64,000 nt of DNA, from assembly GCA_027482185.1 (NCBI GenBank), contig JAIXWF010000023.1:1-64000 (forward strand). Direction: 5' to 3'. The stretch is from Opitutaceae bacterium (GTDB lineage: Bacteria; Verrucomicrobiota; Verrucomicrobiia; Opitutales; Opitutaceae). A model generated the notes under the pieces. That model searched no databases. It was given only the letters and a program-made list of their open reading frames with translations, and was not told the origin of the DNA. This document shows, piece by piece, positions 9,386 to 24,707 of this stretch. Position 1 is the stretch's first letter. Each line of letters starts with the position of its first letter. The position numbers were made by a program, and so were the translations under genes.

Positions 9386-9766
9386 TTGCGGAAAAAGTTC
9401 GCCAGTCTCGCCCTGCTCTTCGCCTGGGTCTGCGCCAACGGCGCGATCTGGGATGCCGCGCAGTTGCTCGTCTGGGGCAAGATGTTTTCCGACAACGCGC
9501 GCGTGATGCCCGTCGCGGCCGCCCTCCGGGCGACCTTCGATCCGGCCAAGGCCTGCGAACTCTGCGCCGGCGTCGCCGACGCGAAGGAAACCGCGCGGCA
9601 GCAATTGCCGCAGGCCGTGGAGCGCTCCGCCGAGAAGCTGCTCCTCGCGCTGCACACGCCCGCCCCGATCCTGCTCGAGCCGGATCCCGCCGCCTGGCCC
9701 GCCGCGCTCGCGAGCGCGGCGCCCGTGCGCACGGAGTCGGTGCCGGTGCCGCCCCCGCGCGTCTGA
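9386..9766 (+). CDS. Small membrane protein with CxxC motif, paralogue 1
   Basis: About 126 residues, assuming the TTG at 9386; no ATG exists in frame after the divergent neighbour's start. An N-terminal hydrophobic helix (about residues 5-22, ASLALLFAWVCANGAIW) precedes WGKMFSDNARVMP, a TF-x-P turn and a CELC pair (Cys57, Cys60), then a variable tail ending PPPRV. It is clearly related to the protein at 10827-11252: both share W.CA.G..WD, MF..N.R.MP..AAL..TF.P and C.LC. No known family is recognised. The gene precedes a CusF-SCO gene, so a periplasmic, membrane-anchored metal-binding or thiol role is inferred. Start assignment is uncertain. Confidence 0.6.
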   Translation: MRKKFASLALLFAWVCANGAIWDAAQLLVWGKMFSDNARVMPVAAALRATFDPAKACELCAGVADAKETARQQLPQAVERSAEKLLLALHTPAPILLEPDPAAWPAALASAAPVRTESVPVPPPRV

Positions 9767-9834
9767 CGCGCCACCGCACCGCCGTGTCCGCGCCCCCGCG
9801 AACGTAGTTTCGCGCGCGCGTTCTCCCGAGTCCC

Positions 9835-9851
9835 GTTCGCCCCCGGCGAAC
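9835..9851. other. Hairpin in conserved leader before the SCO gene
   Basis: GTTCGCC-CCC-GGCGAAC is a perfect 7-bp stem, 69 bases after the stop of paralogue 1 and 62 before the SCO start. The spacer around it is homologous to the spacer at 11253-11392, which has its own GTTCGC/GCGAAC hairpin at the matching place. Confidence 0.5.
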
Positions 9852-9912
9852 TTCACCTCCGTCCGCGCCCGCGCAGCCGGATCCTTCCGCCCTTGCCGGA
9901 CCTGCTCCCGCC

Positions 9913-10830
9913 ATGCCTTTGCCGTTTTCAATCGCTCCGTTTTTTCGCCGGCTCATCCCCGCCGTCGCGGCCGGCCTTGCCTTGGCCCTCGCCGGCTGCA
10001 CCCGCGACCGACCCGCCGAGCACCCGCCGGAGCCGCCGCGCCATCCGCTCCGCGGGGAGATCCTCGGCGTCGCCCGCGACCGCGGCCTCCTCGTCGTGCA
10101 CCACGAGGAAATCCCCGGCTACATGCCCGCGATGACGATGGAGTTCGCCGTCCCCGGCGCCGATCTCGGCGCCTTCCGCGACGGCCAGAAGATCGCCGCG
10201 ACGCTCGTCGAGGCCGCCGCGGGCGACTTCCGCCTCGAAGGTATCCGGATTCTGGATCCGCAACAGGAACGCGACCTCGCCGCCGCCGCGCTAGCGCTCC
10301 GCCAGGACACCCATACGCGCGGCAAACACGCCTACCGCGAAATCGGCGAAACCGCCCCGGCCTTCGCCCTCGCCAACCAGGATGGCGCCGTCGTCCGGTT
10401 CGACCACTTCCGCGGCAAACGCGTCGTGCTCAATTTCATTTTCACCCGCTGCCCCGTGCCGACCATGTGCCCCGCCGCCACGGCCAAGATGATGGCCCTG
10501 CAGGGCGCCGCCAAAGCCGCCGGCATCCGCGATCTCGAGCTCGTTTCGATTTCCTTCGACACCGACTACGACACGCCGCCCGTGTTGAAAAAGTACGCCT
10601 CCGACCGCGGCATCGACACGTCCAACTTCTCTTTTCTCACGGGCCCCAAGGACGCCATCGCCGACCTGCTCCGCCAATTCGGCGTCTACGCCATCCCCGG
10701 CGAAAACCTCTACCGCCACACCCTCGCCACGATTCTCATCGGCGCGGACGGCAAGATCGTCCACCGCACCGACGAATCGTCGTGGAGCCCCGACGATTTC
10801 CTCCGCCTCCTCGCCCCGCCGTTGCCATGA
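9913..10830 (+). CDS. SCO1/SenC-family copper lipoprotein with N-terminal CusF-like domain
   Basis: 305 residues beginning with a lipoprotein signal (hydrophobic run, then LALAGC, Cys at about 30). Residues 39-115 are a CusF-like domain (HPLRGEILGV, HHEEIPGYMPAMTMEF) with the Met-x-x-Met-x-Met pattern used to bind Cu(I). Residues 135-303 are a thioredoxin-fold SCO domain: KRVVLNFIFTRCPVPTMCP with Cys180 and Cys186, and His269 in LYRHTL. The Cys spacing is C-x5-C rather than the textbook C-x3-C, a variant also known in SCO-family proteins. SCO proteins deliver copper to or reduce cytochrome oxidase CuA. The gene overlaps the next by ATGA, so the pair is co-translated. Confidence 0.88.
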   Translation: MPLPFSIAPFFRRLIPAVAAGLALALAGCTRDRPAEHPPEPPRHPLRGEILGVARDRGLLVVHHEEIPGYMPAMTMEFAVPGADLGAFRDGQKIAATLVEAAAGDFRLEGIRILDPQQERDLAAAALALRQDTHTRGKHAYREIGETAPAFALANQDGAVVRFDHFRGKRVVLNFIFTRCPVPTMCPAATAKMMALQGAAKAAGIRDLELVSISFDTDYDTPPVLKKYASDRGIDTSNFSFLTGPKDAIADLLRQFGVYAIPGENLYRHTLATILIGADGKIVHRTDESSWSPDDFLRLLAPPLP

Positions 10831-11252
10831 CCCGCCCGGCCCGCCCCGTTCCCGGCTGCTCCACCCTTCCGCCCGTCCGGCGGCTCAGCCTCGTCGTGAC
10901 CCTCGTCGCCTGGCTCTGCGCCACCGGCACGCAGTGGGACGTCGTGCAGGCCGTCGCCTGGGTCCGCATGTTCGCCGAGAATTCCCGCGAAATGCCGATG
11001 CTCGCGGCCCTCGAGCGGACGTTCAGCCCCGAGGCGCGCTGCAGCCTTTGCCAGGCCGTCTCGCAGGCGAAACAGGATGAACCCGGCCCCGCGGGCACCG
11101 CCGGCAAGACGGACGCCAAAATCGTCTTCGCGCACCAGACGGCCGAGTCCGCTTTCCTCATTATCCCCGCTGCCCCCGCCTGGCCCGTGGCTGACGTCAC
11201 CGTCGCGGGCACCCTCCGCGCCGCCCCGCCGTTGCCGCCGCCGCGCGCCTGA
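10827..11252 (+). CDS. Small membrane protein with CxxC motif, paralogue 2
   Basis: 141 residues. The ATG overlaps the SCO stop (ATGA at 10827-10830), which fixes the start. The hydrophobic helix (about 18-34, RLSLVVTLVAWLCATG) is followed by QWDVVQAVAWVRMFAENSR, MPMLAALERTFSP and CSLC (Cys72, Cys75). A low-complexity tail ends PPPRA. It shares the diagnostic positions of paralogue 1, and the 140 bases after both stops are also alike. Translational coupling to a copper chaperone suggests the pair works in copper delivery, possibly as a membrane anchor or thiol partner of SCO. This is inference; no known domain is recognised. Confidence 0.72.
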   Translation: MTRPARPVPGCSTLPPVRRLSLVVTLVAWLCATGTQWDVVQAVAWVRMFAENSREMPMLAALERTFSPEARCSLCQAVSQAKQDEPGPAGTAGKTDAKIVFAHQTAESAFLIIPAAPAWPVADVTVAGTLRAAPPLPPPRA

Positions 11253-11321
11253 CGCGCCCCGCACCGCCGTGTCCGCGCCGTCCCGTTTCCGGGGAATCTC
11301 GCGCGCGGTTTTCCGAACTCC

Positions 11322-11338
11322 GTTCGCTTTCCGCGAAC
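11322..11338. other. Hairpin in conserved leader before the TonB receptor gene
   Basis: GTTCGC-TTTCC-GCGAAC lies 70 bases after paralogue 2 and 55 before the receptor start. Stem position and flanking bases (GCGCGCG..TT..CCGA) match the leader at 9835-9851, although loop and stem length differ. It may be a regulatory RNA structure or a fossil of the duplication. Confidence 0.5.
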
Positions 11339-11392
11339 CACGCCGAGCGCCCGCGTGCGCGCCGCCGTGTAGCTCCTTCCGCACGTTTTCCC

Positions 11393-13684
11393 ATGTCTTC
11401 CCGTTTCCCGTATCCCGCCACCTTCCTCCCGCTCTGCGCCGCTCTCGCCGTCTCGGCCGCCGCGCAGACCGCCAAACCGGCCGCCCCCGCGGTTCCCGGC
11501 AAGGAGGATCCCGTCCAACTCGCCGCGTTCGACGTCACCGCCGACAAGGAGAACAACTTCTCCCTGCCGCTCGACGCCGTCGCGACCTCCGGCTCGCGCC
11601 TCGGCCTCACCAGCCGCGATCTCCCCGCCAGCATCTCCGTCATCACCCAGGAGATGATGCAACTCCGCGGCCTGCGCACCGCCGTCGAGGCGGTCGAAGC
11701 TGCCGTCGGCATGACCGGCGGCACGCAATTTGGCTCCATCCCGAGCTACTCCACCCGCGGCTTCGGCGGCAACAACGTCACGATCATGCGCGACGGCATC
11801 CGCCAGAACACCGCGTCGCAAAGCTCCCGCACCGTCGATTCCTTCATCCTCGACCGCATCGAGGTCCTCAAGGGCCCCGACGGCCTCATGTTCGGCGAAG
11901 GCGCCATCGGCGGCGCCGTGAACTACATTTCCAAATCCCCGTCCCCGGTCTTCCGCGGCGACGGTCTCGCCAGCGTCGGCCCCTGGGGCAACTACCGCCT
12001 CGGCCTCGGCGTCGGCGGCCCGCTGCTGAAATCATCGCTCAACTCCCAACCCTCGACTGCCAACTCCCTTTCCTACCGCGCCGACTACTCCCACAACCGC
12101 ACCAACGGCTACCAGGAACGGAACTCGCAGCGCTACGACGCCGTCGCCCTTTCCCTCGCCTGGCAGGCTTCCGAGAAATTCGCGCTCACGTGGTGGGGCA
12201 CCTTCCTCGACGACTGGAACGAGAGCTACTACGGCAACCCGACGATCTACGACGGCGTCGTCAACACCCTCGTCGCCAACGCCCAGCCCGAAGTCCGCAC
12301 CTTCAATTCCGCGACCGACCGCCTGATCAACCCGCGCGTCGATCCCGCCGCCCGCCGCACCAACTACAACTTCTTCGACAACTACGCCGCGACCGAGAAC
12401 GTGTTCAACCGCGTGCGCGCCGACTTCCGGTTCTCCCCGGCCGTCGAATTGCGCAACGAGTCGTACGTCGCGACGCAGTTGCTCAAGTGGAAGAACACCG
12501 AGAGCAACACCTGGAACCCCGTCGCCCGCAACATCACCCGCGGCGGCCTCACGTTGATCTACCGTGACGACGTCCTCTACGGCAACCGCCTCGATCTCAC
12601 GGTGAAAAAGCCGATCGCCGGCCACGCCAACCGGCTCCTTGTCGGCGCCGTCTTCGAGCGCAACGACCAGATCCGCGGCGGCGCCGCCGGCAACCAGGTC
12701 ACCGCCATCCCCGCCGTCTCGCTCTACAATCCCAACGTCGGCTTCGCCCCCGCGTCGCGCTTCCAAAAGACCTCCCGCATCGTCGTCGAAACCCACGCCT
12801 TCCACTTCCAGGATGTCTTCGACGTCACGTCGAACTTCCGCGCCGTGGCCGGCGTGCGCTACGACCACATCGCGCTCCACCGCGACACGCTCTTCAACAA
12901 CACGACCGCGGTGCCGACGCCATTCTCCACCTTCAAGAAAGGTTACCGCACTTACACCGGCCGCGTCGGCGGCGTCTGGATCCTTTCGAAATCCGTCAAC
13001 GCCTACGCCTCGTTTTCCCGCGCCGCCGAGCCCGTCACCCAGCTCGTCTCGCTCAACACCGCCCAAGCCGACTACTCCCTGCAAAAGGGCCGCCAGTACG
13101 AAGCCGGGATCAAGGGCACCTTCCTCGGCGGCAAGCTCGACACCACCTTCGCGATCTTCGACCTGCTGAAAAAGGACCTCCTCACCAGCACCCTCGACCC
13201 CGTGACCGGGCTGCGCATCAGCCAGCAGATCGGCGCCCAGAAATCCAAGGGCGCCGAGTTCGCCCTCGCCGTCTCGCCCGGCGACGGCTGGCGCCTCGAG
13301 GGCAACGTCGCGTATACGGATTCCAAGTACGCCGACTTCAACGAAAACCTCGGCACCGGCGTGATCTCCCGCGCCGGCAAGCGCCCGGGCAATGTCCCCG
13401 AGTGGGTCGCGAATGTCTTCGTCGCGAAGCGCTTCGCCAACGGCTTCGCCCTCAGCGGCGGCCCGCGCTGGGTGAGCGACCGCTTCGGCAACACGAACAA
13501 CTCGGTTGTCGCCGAGGGCTACGTGACGCTCGACGCCTCCGCCACCTACACGTGGCACAAGTGGCACTTCACCCTCCGCGGCCGCAATCTGCTCGACGAG
13601 GAGTACGAGTCCGTCGCCGGCACCACGATGCGCCGCCTCGCCGATCCCCGCACCGCCGAGTTCAGCACCCGCTTCTCGTTCTGA
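11393..13684 (+). CDS. TonB-dependent outer-membrane receptor, siderophore-receptor-like
   Basis: 763 residues with a signal peptide (1-24, ending SAAAQ). A TonB-box-like VQLAAFDVTA is followed by a plug domain at about 55-175 (SRDLPASISVITQEMM, YSTRGFGGNNVTIMRDGIRQ, IEVLKGPDGLMFGEGAIGG). A long barrel ends in the terminal aromatic TRFSF. The family imports metal chelates at TonB expense. The genes on either side (SCO, CxCC sialidase-fold protein, CusF) suggest a copper complex rather than ferric siderophore, but substrate cannot be read from the barrel. Residues 215-228 (SSLNSQPSTANSLS) are encoded by an apparent dispersed-repeat tract. The downstream gene starts about 115 bases later on the same strand. 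Confidence 0.87.
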   Translation: MSSRFPYPATFLPLCAALAVSAAAQTAKPAAPAVPGKEDPVQLAAFDVTADKENNFSLPLDAVATSGSRLGLTSRDLPASISVITQEMMQLRGLRTAVEAVEAAVGMTGGTQFGSIPSYSTRGFGGNNVTIMRDGIRQNTASQSSRTVDSFILDRIEVLKGPDGLMFGEGAIGGAVNYISKSPSPVFRGDGLASVGPWGNYRLGLGVGGPLLKSSLNSQPSTANSLSYRADYSHNRTNGYQERNSQRYDAVALSLAWQASEKFALTWWGTFLDDWNESYYGNPTIYDGVVNTLVANAQPEVRTFNSATDRLINPRVDPAARRTNYNFFDNYAATENVFNRVRADFRFSPAVELRNESYVATQLLKWKNTESNTWNPVARNITRGGLTLIYRDDVLYGNRLDLTVKKPIAGHANRLLVGAVFERNDQIRGGAAGNQVTAIPAVSLYNPNVGFAPASRFQKTSRIVVETHAFHFQDVFDVTSNFRAVAGVRYDHIALHRDTLFNNTTAVPTPFSTFKKGYRTYTGRVGGVWILSKSVNAYASFSRAAEPVTQLVSLNTAQADYSLQKGRQYEAGIKGTFLGGKLDTTFAIFDLLKKDLLTSTLDPVTGLRISQQIGAQKSKGAEFALAVSPGDGWRLEGNVAYTDSKYADFNENLGTGVISRAGKRPGNVPEWVANVFVAKRFANGFALSGGPRWVSDRFGNTNNSVVAEGYVTLDASATYTWHKWHFTLRGRNLLDEEYESVAGTTMRRLADPRTAEFSTRFSF
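12034..12070. repeat. Repeat-like tract inside the TonB receptor gene
   Basis: CTCAACTCCCAACCCTCGAC followed by TGCCAACTCCC has the CAACTC cadence of the intergenic repeats (compare CTCTCAACTCTCAG at 343). It stays in frame and adds a polar Ser/Asn/Pro-rich stretch between two barrel strands. It may be an insertion tolerated in an extracellular loop. Confidence 0.4.
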
Positions 13685-13797
13685 GCGGCCCCGCCGCTCC
13701 CGCTTGCCGGGGGCGGCGCCCGCCGCGCCACTCCCGTTTCCACGTTTACCGTTTGCCTCTCCTCCGCTTCCCGCTCCGCTCCCTTTCCCGGCTGCCC

Positions 13798-15204
13798 ATG
13801 AATCCGCTCCGCCTCCTGCTCGCCGTCGCCGCCCTCGCGCTGCCCGCCCGCGCCGCCGACTTCGCCCGGCCGCTGCCCACTCCCGCCGCCGCCGATTCCC
13901 AATGCGCCAATCTCGCCGCCGGGCCGGACGGCGTTCTTTACCTCACCTGGTGCGGACCCGGCGACCGACCCGGCGAACGCGCGCTCAAGCTCGCGACCCT
14001 CGCTCCCGGCCGCACCGAATGGTCCGCGCCGCTCACCGTCGTCAGCACGCCGTTGCTGATGGAGAACTGGGCCGACTTCGCCTCCCTGGCCGTCGGCACG
14101 GACGGCGCCCTCACCGCGCAATGGTTCCAAAAGCAGGACGGTCCCGAGGCCCGCGGCTACGACGGCTGGTATTCGCGTTCCGAGGACGGCGGCCGCACCT
14201 GGCGCGCGCCCGCCCGCCTCGGCCACGAATTCGTCGCCCTCGCCCCGCTCTCCGGCGGCCGGACCCTCGCCGTCTGGCTGGAAAGCGCCCGCGTCCGCGA
14301 CCCCAACGCCCCGCCCCGCCCGAAACGCGACCCCAACGCCCCGCGCCCGGCCGGCAATCCGGAGTCCGCAACCCGCAATCCGCAATCATCGTCCGCCCCC
14401 TACGCGCCTTCGATGAAATTGCTCGCGCGCCTGCTCGCGCCCGACGGCTCCGCCCTCCGCGAATGGACCGTCGACCCCGATGTCTGCACGTGCTGCCAAA
14501 ACACCGCCGCCGTCCTCCCCGGCGACCGCGTCTTCGTCGGCTACCGCGGCCATACCGCGGCGGAAATCCGCGACAACAAATACGCCGTCTTCGATCTCGC
14601 CGCGGGCACGTGGACCGCTCCGGTCACCCTGAAAGACGACGGTTGGAAAATCGCCGCCTGTCCCGTCAACGGCCCCGCCGCCGACAGCCGCGGCGACGCC
14701 CTCGCCGTCGCCTGGTTCACCGCCGCCGACGGCGTGCCCCGCGTCCAGGCGCGCGCCTCCTCCGACGCCGGCCGCACCTTCGGCGCCCCTGTCCAAGTCG
14801 ATCTCGGCCGGCCCCTCGGCCGCCTCGAAACGGTGCTGCTGGCCGACGGTTCCGCCGCGATCCTCTGGCTCGAAGTCGGCGACGCGGAAAATATCGCCGG
14901 CATCTATGCCCGTCGGCTCTGGGCCGACGGCACACTCTCCGAGGCACGGCTCGTCGCGACCTCGAGCCAGGCCCGCGCCAGCGGTTTCCCGCGCGCCGCC
15001 CGGCGGCCCGATGGGCGTATCGTGATGGCTTGGACGGAGGCCGGCGACCCGAAACAAGTACGCCTCCTCGATTTCGATCCCGCCTCGCTCGTGCGCTCCG
15101 GCAAACTTGCCGCCGCCCCGGCCGCCATTCGCCGCGGCCCGCCGCCCATCCTCGAACTTTGTGAATCACCCGCTGCCCTGAACCGTCTCGCCTCCCATCC
15201 ATGA
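13798..15204 (+). CDS. Exported sialidase-fold protein with CxCC motif
   Basis: 468 residues from ATG 13798, which directly precedes the signal peptide (MNPLRLLLAVAALALPARAA). BNR/Asp-box-like segments (SRSEDGGRTWRAP, ASSDAGRTFGAP) and repeated strand patterns indicate a six-bladed sialidase-type propeller. Sialidase catalytic Arg and Tyr residues are not evident. Instead there is a Cys cluster CTCC (Cys230, 232, 233) and a second conserved Cys288 in ACPVNGPA. The protein at 20538-22028 has CECC and GCPVNGPA at the same relative places. I infer a metal-binding propeller, not a glycosidase. The stop overlaps the ATG of the CusF gene (ATGA). A repeat-like tract encodes residues 185-200. Confidence 0.72.
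   Translation: MNPLRLLLAVAALALPARAADFARPLPTPAAADSQCANLAAGPDGVLYLTWCGPGDRPGERALKLATLAPGRTEWSAPLTVVSTPLLMENWADFASLAVGTDGALTAQWFQKQDGPEARGYDGWYSRSEDGGRTWRAPARLGHEFVALAPLSGGRTLAVWLESARVRDPNAPPRPKRDPNAPRPAGNPESATRNPQSSSAPYAPSMKLLARLLAPDGSALREWTVDPDVCTCCQNTAAVLPGDRVFVGYRGHTAAEIRDNKYAVFDLAAGTWTAPVTLKDDGWKIAACPVNGPAADSRGDALAVAWFTAADGVPRVQARASSDAGRTFGAPVQVDLGRPLGRLETVLLADGSAAILWLEVGDAENIAGIYARRLWADGTLSEARLVATSSQARASGFPRAARRPDGRIVMAWTEAGDPKQVRLLDFDPASLVRSGKLAAAPAAIRRGPPPILELCESPAALNRLASHP
14351..14393. repeat. Repeat-like tract inside the CxCC protein gene
   Basis: The stretch contains CCGCAACCCGCAATCCGCAA and neighbouring CAATCCGGAGT units, encoding GNPESATRNPQSSS. Similar CATTCCGCAACCCGAAATTCC wording occurs between genes at 28402-28422. 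The encoded segment is polar and absent from the paralogue at 20538, as expected of an insertion in a loop. Confidence 0.4.
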
Positions 15205-15530
15205 AAAACCGCCTCCTCGCCACCCTGCTCGCCCTCTCCGCCGCCGGCCATTCCGTCGCCGCCGCCGAAACCAAGCCGGCCGAAAAAGCCGACGCCGTGA
15301 AACGCCATCCGCTCCGCGGCGTGGTCACCTCCGTCGACGCCGAACGTTCCACCCTCATGGTCAAACACGAGGAGATCCCCGGCGTCATGCGCGCCATGAC
15401 CATGGCGTTCAAGGTCGACGCCAAGGCGCTCGCCGCCGTGAAGAAAGGCGACGCGATCACCGGCCTCATGTCCCGCCAAGGCAAAGATTGGGTCCTGGAA
15501 AACGTGCAGCCCGCGGCGGCGAAGCCCTGA
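15201..15530 (+). CDS. CusF-like periplasmic copper-binding protein
   Basis: 109 residues with a signal peptide (about 1-22, ending VAAAE) and one CusF-like OB-fold domain: HPLRGVVTSVDAERS, VKHEEIPGVMRAMTMAF, then a strand ending WVLENVQP. The His and the M-x-x-M-T-M ligands typical of Cu(I)-binding CusF are present; the Trp that caps copper in E. coli CusF is not at the usual place. The start codon overlaps the stop of the CxCC gene. The domain is closest in wording to the N-terminal domain of the SCO protein at 9913, so both probably handle copper in the same periplasmic route. Confidence 0.85.
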   Translation: MKNRLLATLLALSAAGHSVAAAETKPAEKADAVKRHPLRGVVTSVDAERSTLMVKHEEIPGVMRAMTMAFKVDAKALAAVKKGDAITGLMSRQGKDWVLENVQPAAAKP

Positions 15531-15658
15531 ACCGGCACTATGCCGCCGCGGGTTTGACCGTCGAAGGTTGGCCGAACGATCCTTCCGGAATCGGCGAACA
15601 TCGTCGCCGCACACCGTCCGAGACGCCGAACGATCTTGCGCTCAGGCGTTAGCCAAAT

Positions 15659-15688
15659 CCGCCCGGCCGATTGGATCCGGCCGGGCGG
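15659..15688. other. Strong GC hairpin between cusF-like and chemoreceptor genes
   Basis: CCGCCCGGCC and GGCCGGGCGG form a perfect 10-bp stem around GATTGGATCC. It lies 129 bases after the CusF stop and 122 before the chemoreceptor start. There is no T-run after it; it may still limit read-through between the two transcription units. Confidence 0.45.
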
Positions 15689-15810
15689 CGCGCCTGCCGT
15701 AGTTGCCCCCGGGGGCAGTGGGTAAATCTCGTCCCTCGGACGGCTTTCAAGCTTCGGCCGGAGCGGTCGAAGGGAGACGGAAGTTTCGCATAACCGCCTG
15801 CACTCCGACC

Positions 15811-17550
15811 ATGAAAACTCCGCCCCGCCTGTTGCTTCTTCTCCTTCCGCTCGCGCTCGCGCTGGTCGGCTCCGCCGCGGCGGCTGACTCCGGTTCTGCG
15901 GCGGCCGCGACGATCCCGCCGGCGGCCCACTCGACCTCGTTGGCCTGGGGTACGATTGCCGTCGGTGCGCTGGGCCTGGCGCTTTTGCTCTATGGGGTGC
16001 ATCGCGCCTCGCTGACGGTGGCGCAACGCTGGAACATCGGCCGCCGCCTCGCCGCGGGCTTCAGTCTCCTGCTCGTCGTGCTGGCCGGCCTCGCCGCCGA
16101 AAGCTGCTTCAGTCTCCGCACCGCCTACCTTGAATTCGAGGAGTACCGGAGCGACGCACGGAACAGCCTGCTCGCCACGGGCCTGCAGGAAACCGTGTAC
16201 GAACTCCGGCTCGTCGCCGCGCAATACTCGCTCCACGGGGACGCCGCGGCCGCCGTCGCCTACGGGACGCTCAAAACCGATCTCGCCCGCAAACTGCAGG
16301 AGGCCCGGCAAACGATTTCCGTCGGCGAGTTCGGCGGGCAACTCGACCGGATGGATGCCGCGGCCGCGCGCCATGCCGCGCTTTTCGGCGACCTCGAGAA
16401 GGCGGTCGGTTCCGGCCGCTCCGACCGCGCGGCCGTCGAGCGCAGTCTGGCGGAAGTCGGCACCGCGCTGGACCGGGAATCGCACCAGCTGGAACAACTC
16501 TTCATCGCACGCCAGACGGAGGACGGCCCGCGCATCGACGCCGAGCTTCGCCACACCGCATCGCTGGTGCTCTGGGTTGCCGTCGCCTCCGTTCTGCTCG
16601 GCGCCGGTCTCGCCTACTGTATCACCCGTTCGATCGTCGGCCCGCTCCGCGACGTTGCCGCGTCGCTCGGCGCCGGGGCCGAGCAGGCCGCGGCCGCCGC
16701 CGATCAGGTTTCGGCCTCGAGCCAGTCGCTCGCCATGGGCGCGACCGAGCAGGCCGCCTCGCTCGAGGAAACCTCCGCGTCCCTCGAGGAATTATCCTCG
16801 ATGACCAAACGCAACGCCGCGAGTTCGTCGGAAGCCAACCGATCCGCTTCCGCGGCGCGCGCCGCCGCCGACACCGGAGGGCGCCAAATGCAGGCGATGC
16901 AGGACGCGATGAATGCGATCAAGGACGCCTCCGACGACATCGCCAAGATCCTGAAGACGATCGACGAAATCGCCTTCCAGACCAATCTCCTCGCATTGAA
17001 CGCGGCGGTCGAAGCCGCCCGGGCGGGCGAACACGGCATGGGCTTCGCCGTCGTCGCCGACGAAGTGCGCGCCTTGGCCCAGCGCTCGGCGGCCGCCGCC
17101 AAAGACACCGCCACGCGGGTCGTCGAATCGGCCCACAAGAGCCAGCAAGGCGTCACCATCAGCTCGGAAGTCGCGCAGAGTTTTGCCGCCATCCGCCAAC
17201 GCATCGAATCGCTCGACGGCCTCGTCGCGGAAATCTCCACCGCCACTTCGGAGCAGAGCCGCGGCGTCGGGCAGTTGTCGGCCGCCGTTTCGCAGATCGA
17301 CCAAGTCACGCAAAACAACGCCGCCAGCGCCGAGGAAACCGCCGCCGCCGCCGAGGAACTCAACGGCCAGGCCCAGATGCTCAAACATGCCGTGCATCAG
17401 CTCGAGCTGCTGACGGGCGCGCGCGCGGGGGCGACGTTGCCCGCTCCCGTCTCCGTCCGGACCTCGGTCCCGCCGGTCCGCGGTCCCGGGGCCGGCCGGA
17501 ATCACTCCCGCACGGCAGCCCGCCCGGGCGCATTCGCCGGGGTGAATTGA
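15811..17550 (+). CDS. Methyl-accepting chemotaxis protein
   Basis: 579 residues from ATG 15811; upstream in-frame codons to 15703 lack export character. A Leu-rich signal segment, a hydrophobic helix (about 47-68) and another at about 80-98 precede a helical sensory region (about 100-245). A further membrane helix at about 247-272 ([20 protein letters not shown]) leads to a short HAMP-like stretch. The cytoplasmic coiled-coil carries the invariant chemoreceptor hairpin ([39 protein letters not shown]). It should signal to CheA/CheW, which are not in this window. It sits between the two metal modules, so metal sensing is possible but unproven. Confidence 0.9.
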
Positions 17551-18002: not shown

Positions 18003-20369
18003 GTGTCCGGCCCCTTTTCCGATGATGCCACGGCGTGCCGCGAGAAGTCGCTCCGGGACCCGGCGGCTCCGGATCCGGAGTTTGCCCGCATCTGCCGGCT
18101 CGCCGCGCACGGCCTTGTCGCCGACGCCGCGGTGATCGCGCTCGTGCCCGCGCCCGGCGCGGATCCCGTTTTCGCGACCGGCCTTCCGTCCGCGGCCGAT
18201 GCGCTGGGCCCGCTTCTGCGCGCAGGCTGCGCCGAAGCCGTACGCACGCACGCGCCGGTGGCCCGCGAAACCGCGGGCTTCCGCGTGCTCGCCATCCCGC
18301 TTGCCGATTCCGCCGGCGCCGTCGGGTGCGTCGCGGCCGGCGGTCGCAACTGGACCGCGGCCGAGATCGCGCTCGCCGGCGAGTTCGCCGCCCTCGCCGA
18401 GGCGCGCCTCGCCCAGCGCGCCACCCTGGAAAAACTCCGCGGCGACGAAAACAAGCTGCGCAAAATCGCGAGCCGTGTCCCCGGCGTGATCTACCAGTAT
18501 CGCCTCCGGCCCGACGGCACCTCTTGTTTTCCCTACGCCAGCGAGGGCATCCGCGAAATCTACGGCGTGGCCCCGGACGCGGTCGTCGACGACGCCGCGC
18601 CCGTCTTCGCCCAGCTTCATCCCGACGACATCCCGGAGATCGTCGCGTCGATCCAGGAATCCGCGCGCACGCTCCAGCCCTGGCGGCACGAGTACCGCAC
18701 GCGCCTCGCCGACGGCTCCCACCGCTGGCTGCGCGGGGACGCGATCCCGGAGCGCGAGGCCGACGGCGGCGTCCTCTGGCATGGCTTCATCACGGACGTC
18801 ACCGCGCGGCGGCAGGCCGAGACGGACCTGCGCGAAAGCCAGGAACGCTTCCGGTTGAATTTCATCCACGCCGGCATCGGCATGGCCCTCGTCGGCCTCG
18901 ACGGCCGCTGGCTCGACGCCAACCCCGCCCTGCTCGCGATGCTCGGCTGGGATCTGCCGGCGTTGACCGCGCCGACCTGCCCGGAGCTCACCTGGCCCGG
19001 CGATCCGGACTTCAACGTCATCGGACCGCAGCTGCTGCGGCAGGAGATCCCGGTGGCGCGCGTCGAGAAACGCTACCGCTGCGCCGACGGTTCCTACCGG
19101 TGGTGCAAGCTCACCGCGGTGCTCGTCCGCAGCGAAGGCGGCGCCCCGCTCTACTTCGTGGCCCAGATCGAGGACATCCAGGCGGCCCGCGAGGCAACCG
19201 CCGCCAAGGAGCGGATCGAGCGCAAGCTCGCCGAGACCGCCAAGCTCGAGAGCCTCGGCGTCCTCGCCGGCGGCATCGCCCACGATTTCAACAACATCCT
19301 CACCGGCGTGCTCGGCAACGCCTCGCTCCTCCGTCTCGAACTGCCCGCGCAGTCGCCGCACCTCGGCGCCATCGGCCAGATCGAGACCGCCGCGCGCCGC
19401 GCCGCCGATCTCTGCAAGCAGATGCTCGCCTACTCCGGCAAGGGCCGGTTCGTGGTGAAGAACATCGACCTCAACCATCTGATCACGGAGACCGCGCGGC
19501 TGCTCGAGATCTCCATCAGCAAGCACACCGTGCTGCGTTTCCACCTCGCGCCGGATTTGCCGGCCATCGAAGCGGACGAAACCCAGATCCGACAGGTCGT
19601 CATGAACCTCGTGATCAACGCCTCCGAGGCCATCGGCGAGCGCAGCGGCGTGGTCGCGATCGCCACCGGCGCCACCGTGCTCGATTCCCGGTACGCCGCC
19701 ACCCTGCACTTCGAACAGAACCTCCCGCCCGGCCATTACTCGTGGATCGAAGTCAGCGACAACGGCTGCGGCATGGCGCCGGACGTGCTCGGCCGGATCT
19801 TCGATCCGTTCTTCTCCACCAAGTTCACCGGCCGCGGGCTCGGCCTCGCCGCCGTCCAAGGCATCGTCCGCGGCCACCGCGGCGGCATCAAGATCTACTC
19901 GGAGCCGGGCAAGGGCACCACGTTCCGGCTCCTCTTCCCGAGCGTCCCCGGCCCCGCCCAGCCCACGCCCGCGGCGGAGCCCCCTTCGGCGGCCTGGCGC
20001 GGCCACGGCAAGGTCCTAATCGTCGACGACGAGGAAACCGTGCGCAGCGTTGCCGCCCGCCTGCTGGAGCACGCGGGTTTCGTCGCGGAAACGGTGCCGG
20101 ACGGCGTCGAGGCCGTGGCGCTCTTCCGGCGCGCGCCCGCCGCCTACGCCTTTGTCCTGCTCGACCTCACCATGCCCCACCTCGACGGCGAGGAGACGTT
20201 CCGCCAGCTGCGCCACATTTATCCCGGCGTGCGCGTCGTGCTCATGAGCGGCTTCAACCATCAGGATGTGATCACCCGTTTCGCGGGCAAGGGCCTCGCC
20301 GGCTTCGTCCCCAAACCCCTCGACGGCCGCACCCTGCTCGACGCCGCGCGGGCCGCCGTCGGGCCCTGA
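18003..20369 (+). CDS. Hybrid sensor histidine kinase with PAS domains and receiver
   Basis: 788 residues from GTG 18003. There is no signal peptide or membrane helix, so it is cytosolic. An N-terminal GAF-like region (about 15-140) precedes two PAS/PAC domains (about 155-280 and 285-400; DGSHRWLRGDAIP and DGSYRWCKLTAVL are PAC-type motifs). The HisKA segment GGIAHDFNNILTG places the phospho-accepting His at 427. The ATPase domain shows NLVINASEAI, DNGCGMAP, FDPFFSTKF and GRGLGLAAVQG. A C-terminal receiver (about 668-785) has DDEE, Asp721 in LLDLTMP and Lys in FVPKP. No response regulator gene is adjacent, so the downstream target is unknown. Confidence 0.92.
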   Translation: MSGPFSDDATACREKSLRDPAAPDPEFARICRLAAHGLVADAAVIALVPAPGADPVFATGLPSAADALGPLLRAGCAEAVRTHAPVARETAGFRVLAIPLADSAGAVGCVAAGGRNWTAAEIALAGEFAALAEARLAQRATLEKLRGDENKLRKIASRVPGVIYQYRLRPDGTSCFPYASEGIREIYGVAPDAVVDDAAPVFAQLHPDDIPEIVASIQESARTLQPWRHEYRTRLADGSHRWLRGDAIPEREADGGVLWHGFITDVTARRQAETDLRESQERFRLNFIHAGIGMALVGLDGRWLDANPALLAMLGWDLPALTAPTCPELTWPGDPDFNVIGPQLLRQEIPVARVEKRYRCADGSYRWCKLTAVLVRSEGGAPLYFVAQIEDIQAAREATAAKERIERKLAETAKLESLGVLAGGIAHDFNNILTGVLGNASLLRLELPAQSPHLGAIGQIETAARRAADLCKQMLAYSGKGRFVVKNIDLNHLITETARLLEISISKHTVLRFHLAPDLPAIEADETQIRQVVMNLVINASEAIGERSGVVAIATGATVLDSRYAATLHFEQNLPPGHYSWIEVSDNGCGMAPDVLGRIFDPFFSTKFTGRGLGLAAVQGIVRGHRGGIKIYSEPGKGTTFRLLFPSVPGPAQPTPAAEPPSAAWRGHGKVLIVDDEETVRSVAARLLEHAGFVAETVPDGVEAVALFRRAPAAYAFVLLDLTMPHLDGEETFRQLRHIYPGVRVVLMSGFNHQDVITRFAGKGLAGFVPKPLDGRTLLDAARAAVGP

Positions 20370-20537
20370 ACCCGACCAATACGCCCGGGTTCGGGAGATC
20401 GATCCCACCCAGGTCGGGCAACATTGCCGCGAGCCGAAGCGGTGCGGCGCCGTCCGGGTTCGCTGCCGATTCCGCGCCAAGCGCGCGCGAAACCACACGG
20501 CGCTGGCGGAAACGGCCGCAGCCGCTAGAATTGCCGC

Positions 20538-22028
20538 ATGCGCCGGATTGCTTTCCTCGGTTTCATGCTCGCCCTGCTGGCCCCGCTGCGCGCCGCCGCA
20601 GCCCCGCGGCTCGCGGTGGCCCCGCTGGCCCTGCCGCCCGGAGCCGAGCACGCGACCGCCTTCAATGCCCTGCGCGGCGACGACGGCCGGACCTATCTCC
20701 TCTGGATCGAAACCGCGGGCGCGCACCCGGTGCTCCGGCTCGCGCGCCAAGCGGCGGACGATTCCTGGGACCCTGCCGTCACCGTTGCAACCGGCGCCGA
20801 TCCCGTCGTCGACGCCACCGACGTCCCCGCCTTCGCCGTCGACCGCCGGGGCCGCCTCACCGTGGCATGGCTGCAGCCGGCCCACGCCGCCGGCAACCCT
20901 TCCGGTCACGCCGCGGGCGGGAGCGCGTACTTCAGCCGCAGCCTCGACGGCGGCCGCACTTGGTCTCCGCCTGAGTCGCTCGCCGCCGCCGGCCGGTCCG
21001 TGGAGTTTCCCGCGCTCGCGGCCCTCGCCGACGGCGACGTTCTCGCGGTCTGGCTTGAAACCGGGACAACGAAAAACGTCCGCCTCGTCGGCCGCACGCT
21101 CGGCGCCCCAGGGCCCGAGAAGGAGATCGACGCCGCCGTCTGCGAATGCTGCCCGCCGGCCCTGCTCGCGTTTCCCGACGGCACCGCCCTGCTCGCCTAC
21201 CGCGGCCGCACCGAGGAAAATGTCCGCGATATCCGCAGCGCCCGCTTTCGCGCCGGCACCTGGACCGAGAGCCGCCCCCTCAACCAGGACGACTGGCGGC
21301 TCGCCGGCTGTCCCGTCAACGGCCCCGCGCTCGCCGGCGAAGGCGGACGCGTCGCCGCCGCCTGGTTCACCGCCGCCGACAACGATCCGCGCCTGCTCGT
21401 GTCGGCCTCGCCCGACGCCGGCGGCCGCTTCCTCTACCCGCTGCGGCTCGGGGAAAACCGTCCGACCGGCCGGCCCGCCGCCGCGATCCTCCGCGACGGC
21501 GCCCTGCTGGCCGCGTGGATCGACGGTGCCGGCGGCCTCCGCCTGCGCCGCGTCACGCCCGAATTCAGCCTCAGCGTGGAGACCGAACTGGCGGCCCCGG
21601 CTTCGGTCTCCGCCCGCGGCCGGCCCCGGCTGCTCGTGCGCGAGGACTACGCCGGCGGCCGGGAATCAGCCCGGCTCCTCGCCTTCTGGCCGCAGGCAGG
21701 CCGCCCCGCCCTGCGGGCCGCGGTCGTCACCGTGCCGGAGGGCGAACTGCTCGAGGCCGAGAAGAGCTGCGACTGCGCGCCCACGCCGGACCAGCTCCGG
21801 GGCTATCCCTTCTTCGGCACCGTCGTATCCACTTTTACGGATACCGCCGAGATCGCCGTGCGCCACGGGGAGGTTCCGGGGCTCCTGCCCGCCGGCGAGC
21901 GGCGCTTCCGGGCCGCGCCCGACGTGCTCGCCGCGGCGGCCGCGGGCCGGCGCTTCCTCGGGCGATTCGAGGCGGCCGGCGACGGTTGGCGGCTCTTTGA
22001 CGTGCGGTTCGTGGCGGCGTCCCCCTGA
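20538..22028 (+). CDS. Exported sialidase-fold CxCC protein with decayed CusF-like tail
   Basis: 496 residues with a signal peptide (MRRIAFLGFMLALLAPLRAAA). The body is a sialidase-type propeller (FSRSLDGGRTWSPPESL, SASPDAGGRF). It is paralogous to the protein at 13798: CECC (Cys202, 204, 205), Cys258 in GCPVNGPA and AAWFTAAD all recur. Extra here are a CDC pair before the tail and about 75 C-terminal residues (YPFFGTVVSTF, IAVRHGEVPGLLPAGERRF) that align with the CusF-like proteins (HPLRGVVTSV, VKHEEIPGVM) but lack the Met ligands. It therefore looks like a fusion of the two-gene arrangement at 13798-15530, with the copper site lost or altered. Confidence 0.7.
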   Translation: MRRIAFLGFMLALLAPLRAAAAPRLAVAPLALPPGAEHATAFNALRGDDGRTYLLWIETAGAHPVLRLARQAADDSWDPAVTVATGADPVVDATDVPAFAVDRRGRLTVAWLQPAHAAGNPSGHAAGGSAYFSRSLDGGRTWSPPESLAAAGRSVEFPALAALADGDVLAVWLETGTTKNVRLVGRTLGAPGPEKEIDAAVCECCPPALLAFPDGTALLAYRGRTEENVRDIRSARFRAGTWTESRPLNQDDWRLAGCPVNGPALAGEGGRVAAAWFTAADNDPRLLVSASPDAGGRFLYPLRLGENRPTGRPAAAILRDGALLAAWIDGAGGLRLRRVTPEFSLSVETELAAPASVSARGRPRLLVREDYAGGRESARLLAFWPQAGRPALRAAVVTVPEGELLEAEKSCDCAPTPDQLRGYPFFGTVVSTFTDTAEIAVRHGEVPGLLPAGERRFRAAPDVLAAAAAGRRFLGRFEAAGDGWRLFDVRFVAASP

Positions 22029-22057
22029 ACCACCGGCCGGAGCCCCCTTGACGCGCC

Positions 22058-22070
22058 CGGCATAATGCCG
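22058..22070. promoter_or_regulatory. Small palindrome before the His/Cys mini gene
   Basis: CGGCA-TAA-TGCCG ends 17 bases upstream of ATG 22088. A near-identical CGGCA-CTA-TGCCG lies at 15533-15545, just after the CusF gene. It could be an operator or a weak hairpin, but five-base GC arms are expected by chance at this base composition. Confidence 0.2.
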
Positions 22071-22087
22071 AGGTTACCCCCGCGTCC

Positions 22088-22438
22088 ATGTTGTCCGCCT
22101 TCCTGCACCTGCTCGTCCGCTGCCGGCTCCGTTTCGGAGCCGCCGCCGCGTCCGCGCTCGTGCTGGCGCTGACCGTCTTCGCGGCCAGTCCCGGAGCCCA
22201 CGCCTGGCTGCACGCCGACGCCGACCACGGCTGCCACCACGCCCAGCCGACCGAGGACGACGCCGGCTGCGTCGTCTTCCAGTTTGCCGGCGGTATCACG
22301 ACGCCGGCGCCCCAGATTCCGCTCGTTGTCCCCGCGGCGCGGCAGCCGCAGACGGAGTCGCCGGCCGAAGCCCGCCTGCGGTTGGTTTCGCCGCGCTACC
22401 TCCGGCAACCGGAACGCGGCCCGCCCGGCCGGATTTGA
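22088..22438 (+). CDS. Small exported/membrane protein rich in His and Cys
   Basis: 116 residues. A hydrophobic helix at about 17-35 is followed by WLHADADHGCHHA (residues 40-52) and a later Cys in DDAGCVVFQFAGG. The rest is Pro/Ala-rich. Size, topology and the HxDxDHxCHH cluster resemble short DUF2946-like proteins often found beside TonB receptors for metals, though I cannot confirm membership. It lies 59 bases after the CxCC protein and 109 before a ZnuD-like receptor, in the position the CxxC mini proteins occupy in the first module. A metal-binding role is inferred from the ligand-rich motif. Confidence 0.65.
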   Translation: MLSAFLHLLVRCRLRFGAAAASALVLALTVFAASPGAHAWLHADADHGCHHAQPTEDDAGCVVFQFAGGITTPAPQIPLVVPAARQPQTESPAEARLRLVSPRYLRQPERGPPGRI

Positions 22439-22455
22439 ATCGTTTGTCCCGGCCC

Positions 22456-22505
22456 GCGGTCGTCGACCGCCGCCGGATTCCGTAGGCCGCAGTCGTCGAC
22501 TGCGG
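22456..22505. repeat. Two tandem GTC-loop mini-hairpins
   Basis: GCGGTC-GTC-GACCGC (22456-22470) and CCGCAGTC-GTC-GACTGCGG (22487-22505) are perfect stems with the same GTC loop, 16 bases apart, in the spacer before the ZnuD-like receptor. The stems differ in sequence, so pairing rather than sequence seems kept. This looks like a dispersed palindromic repeat unit. Confidence 0.5.
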
Positions 22506-22547
22506 ACCGGCGCGGCCCTCGCCGCGCAAACTCAAATCCGTCCCGCC

Positions 22548-24707
22548 ATGTCGCATTCCTCTTTATTCTCCGGTCTCTTCGTCGCCACCGCCGTCCTCGC
22601 CACGGCCCAAACCGCACCGTCCGCCCCGCCGGCCGCCGCCGCTCCGCACGCCCACGGCCACGCCGTCGTGGCGCTGGACCAATTCGTCACCACCGCCACG
22701 CCGTTCGCCCGCAACCAGGTCGATCTCGCCCAGTCCACCACGGTGCTCGGCGGCCGCAGCCTGCTGCTGAAGCAGCAGCCCACGCTCGGGGAAACCCTCG
22801 CGGCCGAACCGGGCATCAGCGCCACGTCGTTCGGTCCCGGCGCCAGCCGCCCGCTGATCCGCGGCCTCGGCGGCGACCGCATCCGCCTCCTCGAAAACAG
22901 CGTCGGCACGCTCGACGCCTCCGTCATCAGCCCCGACCACGCCGTGAGCGTGGAACCCTTCCTCGTCGAGCGCATCGAGGTCGTGCACGGTCCCGCTTCC
23001 CTCCTCTACGGCGGCAACGCCGTCGGCGGCGTCGTCAACGTCATCACCCACCGCATCGAAACCGAGGTTCCGGCCGAGACGGTGCGCGGCGGCGGCGAAC
23101 TCCGCTACGGCAGCGCCGCCGATGACGTTTCGGTCGGCGGCGTCATCGATGTCGCGCACCGCACGGGCAAGGACAGCGCGGTGGTCCTGCACCTCGACGG
23201 CTCGCATCGCCGCGCGGAGAACCTCGCCATCCCCGGCTTCGCCGAGAGCGCGCGGATCCGCGCGGAGGAGACCGCGGAGGCCCGGAGCCACGGCGAACCG
23301 GCCCCGGATTTCGCGCGCGACCGCCTGCCCAACAGTTCCCTCGAGAACCGCAGCGGCGCCGCGGGTCTCTCGTGGGTGAGCCCGATGTTCCAGATCGGCG
23401 CCGCGTACAGCGGCTTCGAATCCAACTACGGCGTTCCCGGCCACGCCCACGAAGCCGACGCCGGCGCCCCCGCCGTCAGCGAAGGCGTGCGCATCGACCT
23501 GCGCCAACGCCGCACCGACCTGCAGTCGGAATGGCGCGGCGGCACCGGCTGGGTGCGCGGCGCCCGCGTCAAATTCGGCCACGCCGACTACCGCCACACG
23601 GAATTCGAGCCCGACGGCACCGCCGGCACCGTGTTCACCAATCGCGGCCACGAGGCCCGCGCGGAACTCCTGCACGGCGACGGTCGGCCGTGGACCGGCG
23701 CCCTCGGCCTCCAGACCTCCCGCAGCCGTTTCGCCGCCATTGGCGACGAGGCCTTCCTGCCGCCGTCAACCACCCGCGCGGATGCCATCTTTGCCTTCGA
23801 GGAACTCGCCCGGGGCCCGGTCGTCTGGCAGGCCGGCGCCCGGCTCGAACGCACGCGCCTCGCGACCGCGGCGAACTCCCGGACGGACCGCAACCTGAGC
23901 GCCTCCCTCGGCGCCGTTCTGAAACCGGCGGCCGGCTGGGTGCTCGCCGCCTCCCTCTCCCACACGGGCCGCGCCCCGAACGCGCAGGAACTGTACGCCG
24001 ACGGCGCGCACGCGGGCACCGGCAGCTACGAGATCGGCGATGCCGGCCTCGGCCGCGAGCGTTCCCTCGGAGCCGAGGTGAGCCTGCGGCGCCGCACCGG
24101 CCGCGTGACCGGCGGCCTCACGGTGTTCCTGCACCGCTTCGACGGCTACATCTTCGAGCAGCCGACGGGGCTCGTCGCGGTGGAGCACGACGGCGCATGG
24201 GAATTCGAAACCCCGGCCGCCGGCGCCGCCCACGGCCACGAGGAAACGCTGCCGGTTTACCGCTACGTCGCGCGCGACGCCCGCTTCCACGGCGCGGAGG
24301 CCGAAGCCGTCTGGCATCTGCACGAGTCCGGATCCCGCCAACTGGACCTGCGGCTCGCCGCCGATCTCACGCGGGCGGAAGAAGGCGGCCGCGCCCTGCC
24401 CCGCATCCCGGCCGCGCGCACGACGGTCGGCCTGCTCTGGGCCGCCCCGTTGTGGAGCGCCGGCCTCGAGAGCCAGTTCATCCTGCGCCAAAACCGCGTC
24501 GCCGCCAACGAGACCGCCTCGGGCGCGTCCACCGTGCTCAACGCCCACCTCAGCCGGACCGTCGCCTTCGGCGCGGCCCGCGGGGAAATTTTCCTGCGGG
24601 GAACGAACCTCACCGACGCCGAGATCCGGCCGCACCCGTCGTTCGTGAAAGAGCTGGCCCCGCTGGCCGGCCGCGGCGTCGCGGGCGGCGTCCGTTTTTC
24701 GTTCTGA
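22548..24707 (+). CDS. TonB-dependent receptor, ZnuD-like (zinc/copper)
   Basis: 719 residues from ATG 22548, which directly precedes the signal peptide (ending LATAQ). A His-rich HAHGHAV precedes the TonB-box region. The plug (about 45-165) has TLGETLAAEPGIS, GPGASRPLIRGLGGDRIR, the SPDHAVSVEP motif shared with meningococcal ZnuD, and IEVVHGPASLLYGGNAVGG. The barrel includes His-bearing loops (GHAHEADAG, AHGHEETLP) and ends VRFSF. ZnuD imports Zn2+, and the His-rich loops fit zinc or copper. Neighbouring CxCC and His/Cys proteins suggest periplasmic acceptors. It is only distantly similar to the receptor at 11393, so the two modules recruited different receptors. Confidence 0.85.
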   Translation: MSHSSLFSGLFVATAVLATAQTAPSAPPAAAAPHAHGHAVVALDQFVTTATPFARNQVDLAQSTTVLGGRSLLLKQQPTLGETLAAEPGISATSFGPGASRPLIRGLGGDRIRLLENSVGTLDASVISPDHAVSVEPFLVERIEVVHGPASLLYGGNAVGGVVNVITHRIETEVPAETVRGGGELRYGSAADDVSVGGVIDVAHRTGKDSAVVLHLDGSHRRAENLAIPGFAESARIRAEETAEARSHGEPAPDFARDRLPNSSLENRSGAAGLSWVSPMFQIGAAYSGFESNYGVPGHAHEADAGAPAVSEGVRIDLRQRRTDLQSEWRGGTGWVRGARVKFGHADYRHTEFEPDGTAGTVFTNRGHEARAELLHGDGRPWTGALGLQTSRSRFAAIGDEAFLPPSTTRADAIFAFEELARGPVVWQAGARLERTRLATAANSRTDRNLSASLGAVLKPAAGWVLAASLSHTGRAPNAQELYADGAHAGTGSYEIGDAGLGRERSLGAEVSLRRRTGRVTGGLTVFLHRFDGYIFEQPTGLVAVEHDGAWEFETPAAGAAHGHEETLPVYRYVARDARFHGAEAEAVWHLHESGSRQLDLRLAADLTRAEEGGRALPRIPAARTTVGLLWAAPLWSAGLESQFILRQNRVAANETASGASTVLNAHLSRTVAFGAARGEIFLRGTNLTDAEIRPHPSFVKELAPLAGRGVAGGVRFSF

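Follow-up and report, generated by a model that had tools for sequence, protein, structure and literature searches.

Bacterial copper uptake, unlike copper export, is poorly known, and the paper describing the family of the Bordetella copper importer CrtA dates from 2026 (PMC12914433). The described systems closest to the locus reported here are CruR-CrtA-CrpH of Bordetella (PMC9426467, PMC12914433, PMC13038864), CutF-CutO-CutG of Rhodobacter (PMC8456105, PMC9973294), and a class of upstream open reading frames (uORFs) with RAPP or RGPP sequences (PMC12992588). As described in the first group of papers, CruR requires a CXXC motif and RAPP and stands before a TonB receptor gene with a 162-bp spacer (PMC9426467), copper shuts the genes off, a PepSY_TM (CrpH) gene follows the receptor in >75% of CrtA loci, and CruR homologs are reported from Proteobacteria and, in small numbers, from Planctomycetes, Firmicutes, and Deinococcus. 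CrtA is represented by the structures 9RVQ and 9RVX, and its His358 is reported to be essential and invariant (PMC12914433). CutF ends in PEPEGPPPRL, an end that is reported, together with its Cys pair, to be needed for function (PMC8456105), and it is described as responding positively to copper (PMC8456105, PMC9973294). The RAPP/RGPP uORFs are reported to precede TonB- and copper-related genes in many phyla of Gram-negative bacteria, and RGPP is described as the strongest arrest sequence and, in many phyla, as the four-residue sequence that is most strongly excluded (PMC12992588). Here, we analyze 64,000 nucleotides (nt) from an Opitutaceae bacterium (assembly GCA_027482185.1, contig JAIXWF010000023.1, positions 1 to 64,000 of the forward strand; hereafter, the window, which is contig C5 of its own 6.4-Mb genome, G000), in which two gene modules each encode a beta-propeller with CxCC and CPxxGP motifs (here termed the CxCC propeller), a TonB-dependent receptor, and small leader open reading frames (ORFs).

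Two gene modules with a CxCC propeller

Module 1 consists, in order, of a leader ORF, a CusF-SCO lipoprotein gene, a second leader ORF, a TonB receptor gene, a CxCC propeller gene, and a CusF gene; module 2 consists of a CxCC propeller gene, a leader ORF, and a ZnuD-like receptor gene, and all of these lie on the plus strand. With moderate confidence, we read module 1 as a copper-starvation uptake-and-delivery operon, import with delivery to oxidases being the best single reading; that it handles copper is likely. This reading is strengthened by the closeness of the receptor to CrtA, by leaders of CruR/CutF design, by the fusion of propeller, CusF, and SCO in a single polypeptide in related genomes, and by the conserved clustering of these genes. 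Module 2 may serve copper or zinc. We infer metal binding and regulation in both modules from their sequences.

An earlier note on this DNA, made from the letters alone, had named these genes; every ORF proved to be open at its place, Pfam recovered CusF, SCO1-SenC, and two TonB receptors, and the ATGA overlaps noted at 10827 (leader 2 with the CusF-SCO gene) and 15201 (CusF with propeller 1) follow from the ORF coordinates. Its description of the modules as duplicated is loose, the propellers being 32% identical (E = 5e-44), the receptors matching CrtA versus ZnuD, and the two leader families having no detectable similarity.

The CxCC propeller family and its fusion to CusF and SCO

Propeller 1 (13798..15204; 468 amino acids [aa]) carries CxCC at residues 230 to 233 (nt 14485 to 14496) and CPVNGP at residues 288 to 293 (nt 14659 to 14676); in propeller 2 (20538..22028; 496 aa), the same motifs lie at nt 21141 to 21152 and nt 21309 to 21326. 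The C-x-C-C and CPVNGPA motifs first noticed by eye are indeed common to both, and the sharing goes beyond chance because the four propeller cysteines (CxCC and CP) are invariant in all 23 aligned relatives. By reading of its strands, the propeller model has seven blades, and its best structural matches are CylK and PLL-type lectins; Asp-box-like repeats are present in the propeller, and searching solved structures by sequence gave nothing useful (best E = 0.038). The "sialidase fold" of the earlier note is therefore a loose label. As read from strand order in the model, the cysteines would immediately precede the innermost strands of two consecutive blades and share one face of the central channel. 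At its C terminus, propeller 2 has a degenerate CusF-like tail (nt 21813 to 21986; HGEVPGLLPAGERRF) without the MxxMTM methionines, which reaches 14.6 bits against the PF11604 (CusF) cutoff of 27.

Three related genomes (G019, G014, and G008) each have one uninterrupted frame of 717 codons in which CxCC, CPxxGP, MxAMTM, and the SCO Cys pair all occur. The G019 protein (locus L024), of 656 aa when counted from its likely start, combines the propeller (CECC ... CPHHGP) with CusF (35.0 bits) and SCO (87.3 bits). The gene order in G019 (L114) is a leader with CxxC and an RPPR end, a TonB receptor, the fusion, CusF, CusF-SCO, an RGPP leader, and a ZnuD-like receptor; G014 (L115) has the same order from the receptor onward, and G008 (L116) has a leader, a receptor, the fusion, and CusF. 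Next to the fusion, the receptor matches are fragmentary and weak (E = 1e-6 to 1e-13). From the invariant cysteines, the fusion, and the neighbors, we infer that the propeller may be a thiol carrier. Our literature searches, with subscription journals and preprints outside their scope, turned up no publication that links a propeller or sialidase of this kind to copper.

Two propeller-like relatives (L022 in G030 and L023 in G027) lack the CxCC and CPxxGP cysteines and keep the CusF-like tail, with MPAMTM intact in L023.

TonB-dependent receptors and CusF and SCO proteins

The module 1 receptor (11393..13684; 763 aa) matches CrtA (9RVQ_A) over its full length as its best solved structure (E = 2.1e-67, residues 30 to 760), the next best being at 2.6e-27 and the pyoverdine receptor far behind. 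In all 12 aligned rows, two of which are the window's own receptor, CrtA E337 corresponds to Glu and R395 to Arg, and Q356 is replaced by Ile; Y130 is replaced by Thr in the 10 rows reaching it, and W265 by Tyr in the pairwise alignment with the module 1 receptor. Because E337 and R395 are kept and H358, Q356, Y130, and W265 are replaced, this protein is, by its residues, a CrtA-like sister rather than a strict CrtA. Its downstream neighbor, the propeller, stands in the slot where CrtA operons carry PepSY_TM. The module 2 receptor (22542..24707; 721 aa) is nearest to ZnuD among solved structures (4rdr, E = 4.7e-52) and scores below the cutoff of the NCBIfam ZnuD model NF038289 (322.9 versus 950 bits).

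The CusF-SCO protein (9913..10830), judged by eye to be a lipoprotein from its LAGC, combines a CusF domain at residues 44 to 111 (MPAMTM; PF11604, 38.8 bits) with an SCO domain at residues 150 to 281 (PF02630, 76.1 bits; cutoff, 22.8) that matches SCO structures (E = 7e-17). The separate CusF (15201..15530; 109 aa) bears MRAMTM and scores 51.7 bits. The MxxMTM site attributed by the earlier note to the CusF domains is accordingly present, with above-cutoff scores, in both module 1 domains and lost from the tail of propeller 2. SCO1/SenC proteins have a C-x3-C copper motif; this is not kept in the window SCO domain, where the Cys pair is C-x5-C, a two-residue insertion relative to Bacillus Sco1. 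CusF is rare, with 72 matches in 31 whole genomes (0 to 5 each), and its association with module 1 is beyond chance because two of the three matches over the cutoff in the 6.4-Mb genome lie there. COX1 is present in all 13 genomes checked, and four genomes (G000, G015, G017, and G020) have a further CusF-SCO gene at a distance of ~5 kb from COX1 and in the opposite orientation (in G000, on contig C3 at about 152079 to 159369).

Leader ORFs and their spacers

Leader ORF 1 (9386..9766; TTG start, 126 aa) has the CxxC motif CELC and ends in VPVPPPRV-stop (PPPR codons 9749 to 9760); leader ORF 2 (10827..11252; 141 aa) has CSLC (codons 11040 to 11051) and ends in RAAPPLPPPRA-stop. CxxC and the terminal PPR are invariant in all 21 aligned module 1 leaders, whose ends are PPPR or RPPR and not RAPP/RGPP. 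Leader ORF 3 of module 2 (22088..22438; 116 aa) is DUF2946-like, has a His/Cys stretch, and ends in PERGPP (RGPP codons 22415 to 22426). Module 2 leaders end in PERGPP or GRGPP, with RGPP in 14 of 14 aligned members and 15 of 16 in a wider set, and CXXC is absent from these 16. The RGPP end is rare: among 9,295 six-frame ORFs, 7 have RGPP within the last 12 residues, and 6 of these are module 2 leaders.

The earlier note had listed these mini proteins among the components of its metal-acquisition modules; most likely, they are not parts of the metal path but regulatory metal-sensing leader peptides, as their PPPR/RGPP ends and CruR/CutF design suggest. They are CruR/CutF-like by design and, by the Pfam test, not members of those families, because the 21 module 1 leaders share no common Pfam family, with only chance-level matches (E ≥ 0.05) in single members and PF11162 (DUF2946) in none, and only 1 of 14 module 2 leaders reaches DUF2946 at E ≤ 0.01, below the Pfam cutoff (leader 3 itself scores 19.8 bits against 23.7). 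The idea of one duplicated leader is not supported, as the similarity between the two sets is undetectable (hhalign probability 0.1).

Spacers of 146 nt (9767..9912), 140 nt (11253..11392), and 103 nt (22439..22541) separate leaders 1, 2, and 3 from the CusF-SCO, CrtA-like receptor, and ZnuD-like receptor genes, respectively. The predicted RNA folds of the first two are not unusual (z = -1.13 and +0.35), and that of the third (22436 to 22541) is very stable for its composition, with a nested palindromic stem (z = -3.82; 0 of 200 shuffles equally stable). RNAalifold on a MAFFT alignment of 22 leader-to-gene spacers gave no pairs and no consensus structure. A GTTCGC/GCGAAC-type hairpin was seen by eye in about half of these spacers, and we claim nothing from it. 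A C-over-G bias, considered as a hint of Rho sites, was discarded as uninformative, since the receptor and propeller genes on the same strand show a larger C excess. Separately, a small hypothetical protein of a roseobacter copper island ending in RPPRFLI (L033, 3051 to 3467; L112, 763 to 1179) is possibly a CutF-like leader; in L033, it lies upstream of TolC and copper-oxidase genes and has no Pfam match.

Gene neighborhoods of the propeller relatives

In a scan of 84,980 species genomes, at least 591 stretches matched, at least 547 of them being relatives, and the best 80 loci, a set leaning to close relatives, were counted: 19 PROP1-clade and 16 PROP2-clade loci of Opitutae and 45 others from Bacteroidota, Gemmatimonadota, Acidobacteriota, Proteobacteria, and further groups. 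Within 6 kb, the PROP1-clade loci have CusF in 15 cases, a TonB receptor in 13, a leader in 12, SCO in 8, and a multicopper oxidase (MCO) in 2 (L042 and L043); of the six that lack a receptor, four have <1.7 kb of sequence upstream. PROP2-clade loci have a TonB receptor in 9 of 16 cases, a module 1-type leader in 6, a module 2-type leader in 4, and a separate CusF in 2. At the 11 places ≥55% identical to propeller 1 (the window included), CusF lies within 6 kb in 7, and 3 of the other 4 are within 1.6 kb of a contig end. Modules 1 and 2 occur together in the window and in L051, and the ZnuD-like receptor with its RGPP leader stands beside CusF-SCO in L114 and L115.

Outside Opitutae, 28 of the 45 loci have at least one of the searched metal or partner families within 6 kb. 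For 41 of the 45, four near-duplicates being dropped, we compared near neighborhoods (within 2.5 kb; 184.6 kb examined) with far ones (5 to 8 kb; 165.4 kb examined). Thioredoxin/SCO was found near the propeller at 12 loci and far from it at none; the counts were 5 versus 1 for P-type ATPases, 3 versus 1 for cytochrome c, and 0 versus 0 for both CusF and TonB receptors. In Pfam searches of 105 near and 98 far neighbor ORFs, AhpC-TSA and Redoxin each occurred 7 times near, neither being among the first 25 far families listed. The earlier note had named homologs lying mostly away from metal genes as the outcome that would refute its proposal, and on this test the result is mixed: most Opitutae homologs stand with such genes, and in the other groups thioredoxin/SCO is the one clear association. 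Plasmid records with a propeller relative number 63, of which 62 belong to listed roseobacter-type genera; a plasmid search with the L024 propeller recovered the same roseobacter relatives, including one on a plasmid of Phaeobacter inhibens, and one Methylomagnum record.

Proposed copper acquisition and its alternatives

Under the copper-acquisition reading of module 1, ribosomes translating the CxxC leader ORFs when copper is scarce would be held up at the proline/arginine ends, and this would govern the CusF-SCO and receptor genes; copper on the nascent CxxC would alter the stall, as in CruR, with the opposite sign, as in CutF, being an alternative. The CrtA-like receptor would carry a copper chelate into the periplasm, where the secreted propeller would take the copper with its four invariant cysteines, as a thiol acceptor between the receptor and CusF/SCO. 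CusF and the CusF-SCO lipoprotein would then accept it for cuproenzymes, most likely heme-copper oxidases, and a partner with the thioredoxin fold (here SCO; in other groups, a thioredoxin-like protein) would keep the propeller thiols reduced or accept the propeller's copper. Module 2 would be a second, older-diverged unit of like design, with its propeller, RGPP leader, and ZnuD-like receptor.

Several observations weigh against this reading. The essential His358 of CrtA is replaced by Arg in all 12 receptor rows, and no CrpH-type PepSY_TM gene (PF03929) was found on the window's contig, the only matches in G000 being on contig C7. The PPPR-type end alone is less specific than RGPP because 23 of the 44 ORFs with a PPR-type end in the last 8 residues are not leaders (the other 21 are). 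None of the searched families lies within 6 kb at 17 of the 45 non-Opitutae loci, a few of them cut by contig ends, and copper-efflux genes had to be rejected as general propeller partners, since they show no enrichment at the 41 compared loci (MCO, 3 near and 4 far; RND/MFP, 6 and 4). Finally, all 3 of the 63 plasmid records that were opened lie in metal-resistance islands, with MCO genes (fragmentary in two of the records) and P-type ATPases; one record has CueR and TolC in addition, and one has a mer operon. Because these roseobacter relatives sit in such islands, they suggest detoxification rather than import: the propeller would be a periplasmic copper buffer with CusF and MCO partners, and the leaders would switch the genes on with copper, as reported for CutF (PMC8456105, PMC9973294), whose end is of the same type as PPPR-x-stop. 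The MCO near two PROP1-clade loci fits this as well. We consider detoxification unlikely, given the frequent TonB receptor in the PROP1 clade, accompanied by SCO, an assembly and not an efflux protein, and given that the MCO, RND/MFP, and P-type ATPase profiles match nothing in module 1.

The thioredoxin/SCO enrichment and the position of the propeller in the PepSY_TM slot would also suit a thiol-redox enzyme, for example, a copper-chelate reductase replacing CrpH with thioredoxin/SCO as the electron partner, and the fusion genomes G008, G014, and G019 (the last 70% complete) have no PepSY_TM match. Yet no Pfam cofactor domain was found in the propeller, PepSY_TM genes are present in 9 of 13 genomes checked, and G009, with a propeller 1 relative and no fusion, has none either, so that this role appears quite improbable. 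For module 2, zinc acquisition, with a propeller family that handles thiophilic metals generally, is a real if tentative possibility: its receptor has ZnuD as the nearest match, a His/Cys stretch takes the place of CxxC in its leader, and its CusF-like tail is without the copper methionines. On the other side, the same propeller family and CxCC motif are found with CusF and SCO, and the two modules, or their parts, are found together in the window, L051, L114, and L115. That the propellers are genuine sialidases, or glycosidases of another kind, and lie near metal genes by coincidence is highly improbable: glycoside hydrolases and a putative neuraminidase are among the close folds of the model, but the BNR_2 sialidase profile (PF13088) stays below its cutoff of 31.4 bits in both window propellers (26.1 and 26.2), the conserved positions include the four cysteines, and the family is fused to CusF and SCO. 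Sialidases carry an N-terminal motif with the [FY]RIP arginine; a RIP-type motif near the N terminus occurs in 0 of 23 propellers, and a loose pattern matches 2 of them in mid-protein (L007, residue 116; L008, residue 135).

The proposal of the earlier note, in which copper is imported and delivered and the propeller acts as carrier, is the best available reading for module 1. The propeller is, by its contexts, not confined to import because relatives occur in roseobacter resistance islands and, in other phyla, often next to a thioredoxin or at places where the searched metal genes are all lacking nearby. As a broader and still doubtful proposal, the CxCC/CPxxGP propeller might form a novel class of thiolate copper proteins in the periplasm (carriers or copper-chelate reductases) found in several phyla under the label "sialidase," often with a thioredoxin-fold partner; in Opitutae, the propeller would replace CrpH in an operon for copper import under the control of two unrelated metal-sensing arrest-peptide families, one unrecognized by Pfam. 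If so, a "sialidase"-labeled protein of several phyla would supply the missing periplasmic step between an outer-membrane copper importer and the oxidase assembly chaperones.

Other genes of the window

The stretch between modules 1 and 2 includes genes for a chemotaxis-type receptor and a hybrid histidine kinase. Upstream of the copper genes, at 6697 to 8106 on the plus strand, is a gene for a TIR-domain protein (PF13676, 77.8 bits), in which inspection by eye shows a hydrophobic stretch; the same cluster also occurs near the propeller in L044, L055, L071, and L076. The tRNA-Glu that ARAGORN predicted at 8952 to 9029 on the plus strand, within an opposite-strand DUF481 gene (8201 to 9268), is probably a false positive.

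Comparison with known systems

With CruR-CrtA-CrpH as described (PMC9426467, PMC12914433, PMC13038864), the window shares a small leader ORF (with CXXC in module 1 and without it in module 2), an arrest-type proline end (RGPP, akin to RAPP, in module 2; PPPR or RPPR in module 1), a long spacer, a TonB receptor, and links to SCO and heme-copper oxidases. It differs in having a CxCC propeller and CusF after the receptor and no PepSY_TM gene at the locus, in a receptor without the essential His, in module 1 leaders that form a separate family ending in PPPR, and in an internal leader 2 overlapping the SCO gene. CutF is likewise a small exported Cys-pair leader with a GPPPRL end and copper genes downstream, comparable to the window's VPVPPPRV and RAAPPLPPPRA; it is described as having CxxxC, a stem-loop that covers the following Shine-Dalgarno site, and a downstream gene for a copper oxidase (PMC8456105, PMC9973294), whereas the module 1 leaders have CxxC throughout the family, 140- to 146-nt spacers, and a receptor or CusF-SCO downstream. 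Module 2 resembles the reported RAPP/RGPP uORFs in the C-terminal RGPP of a small ORF upstream of a TonB receptor; here, this is tied to the CxCC propeller, and the module 1 leaders are without RAPP/RGPP as such. What would be new beyond the uORFs reported in PMC12992588, if our reading is correct, is a leader family, unrecognized by Pfam, that combines CxxC with a PPPR end and is linked to a named metal system. The module 2 receptor, for which ZnuD is the best match, departs from ZnuD in its subthreshold family score and in being carried with a propeller and an RGPP leader. The propellers share the beta-propeller and Asp-box-like repeats of sialidase/BNR-repeat proteins, PLL lectins, and CylK and are set apart from them by the invariant CxCC and CPxxGP motifs and by their metal-gene context.

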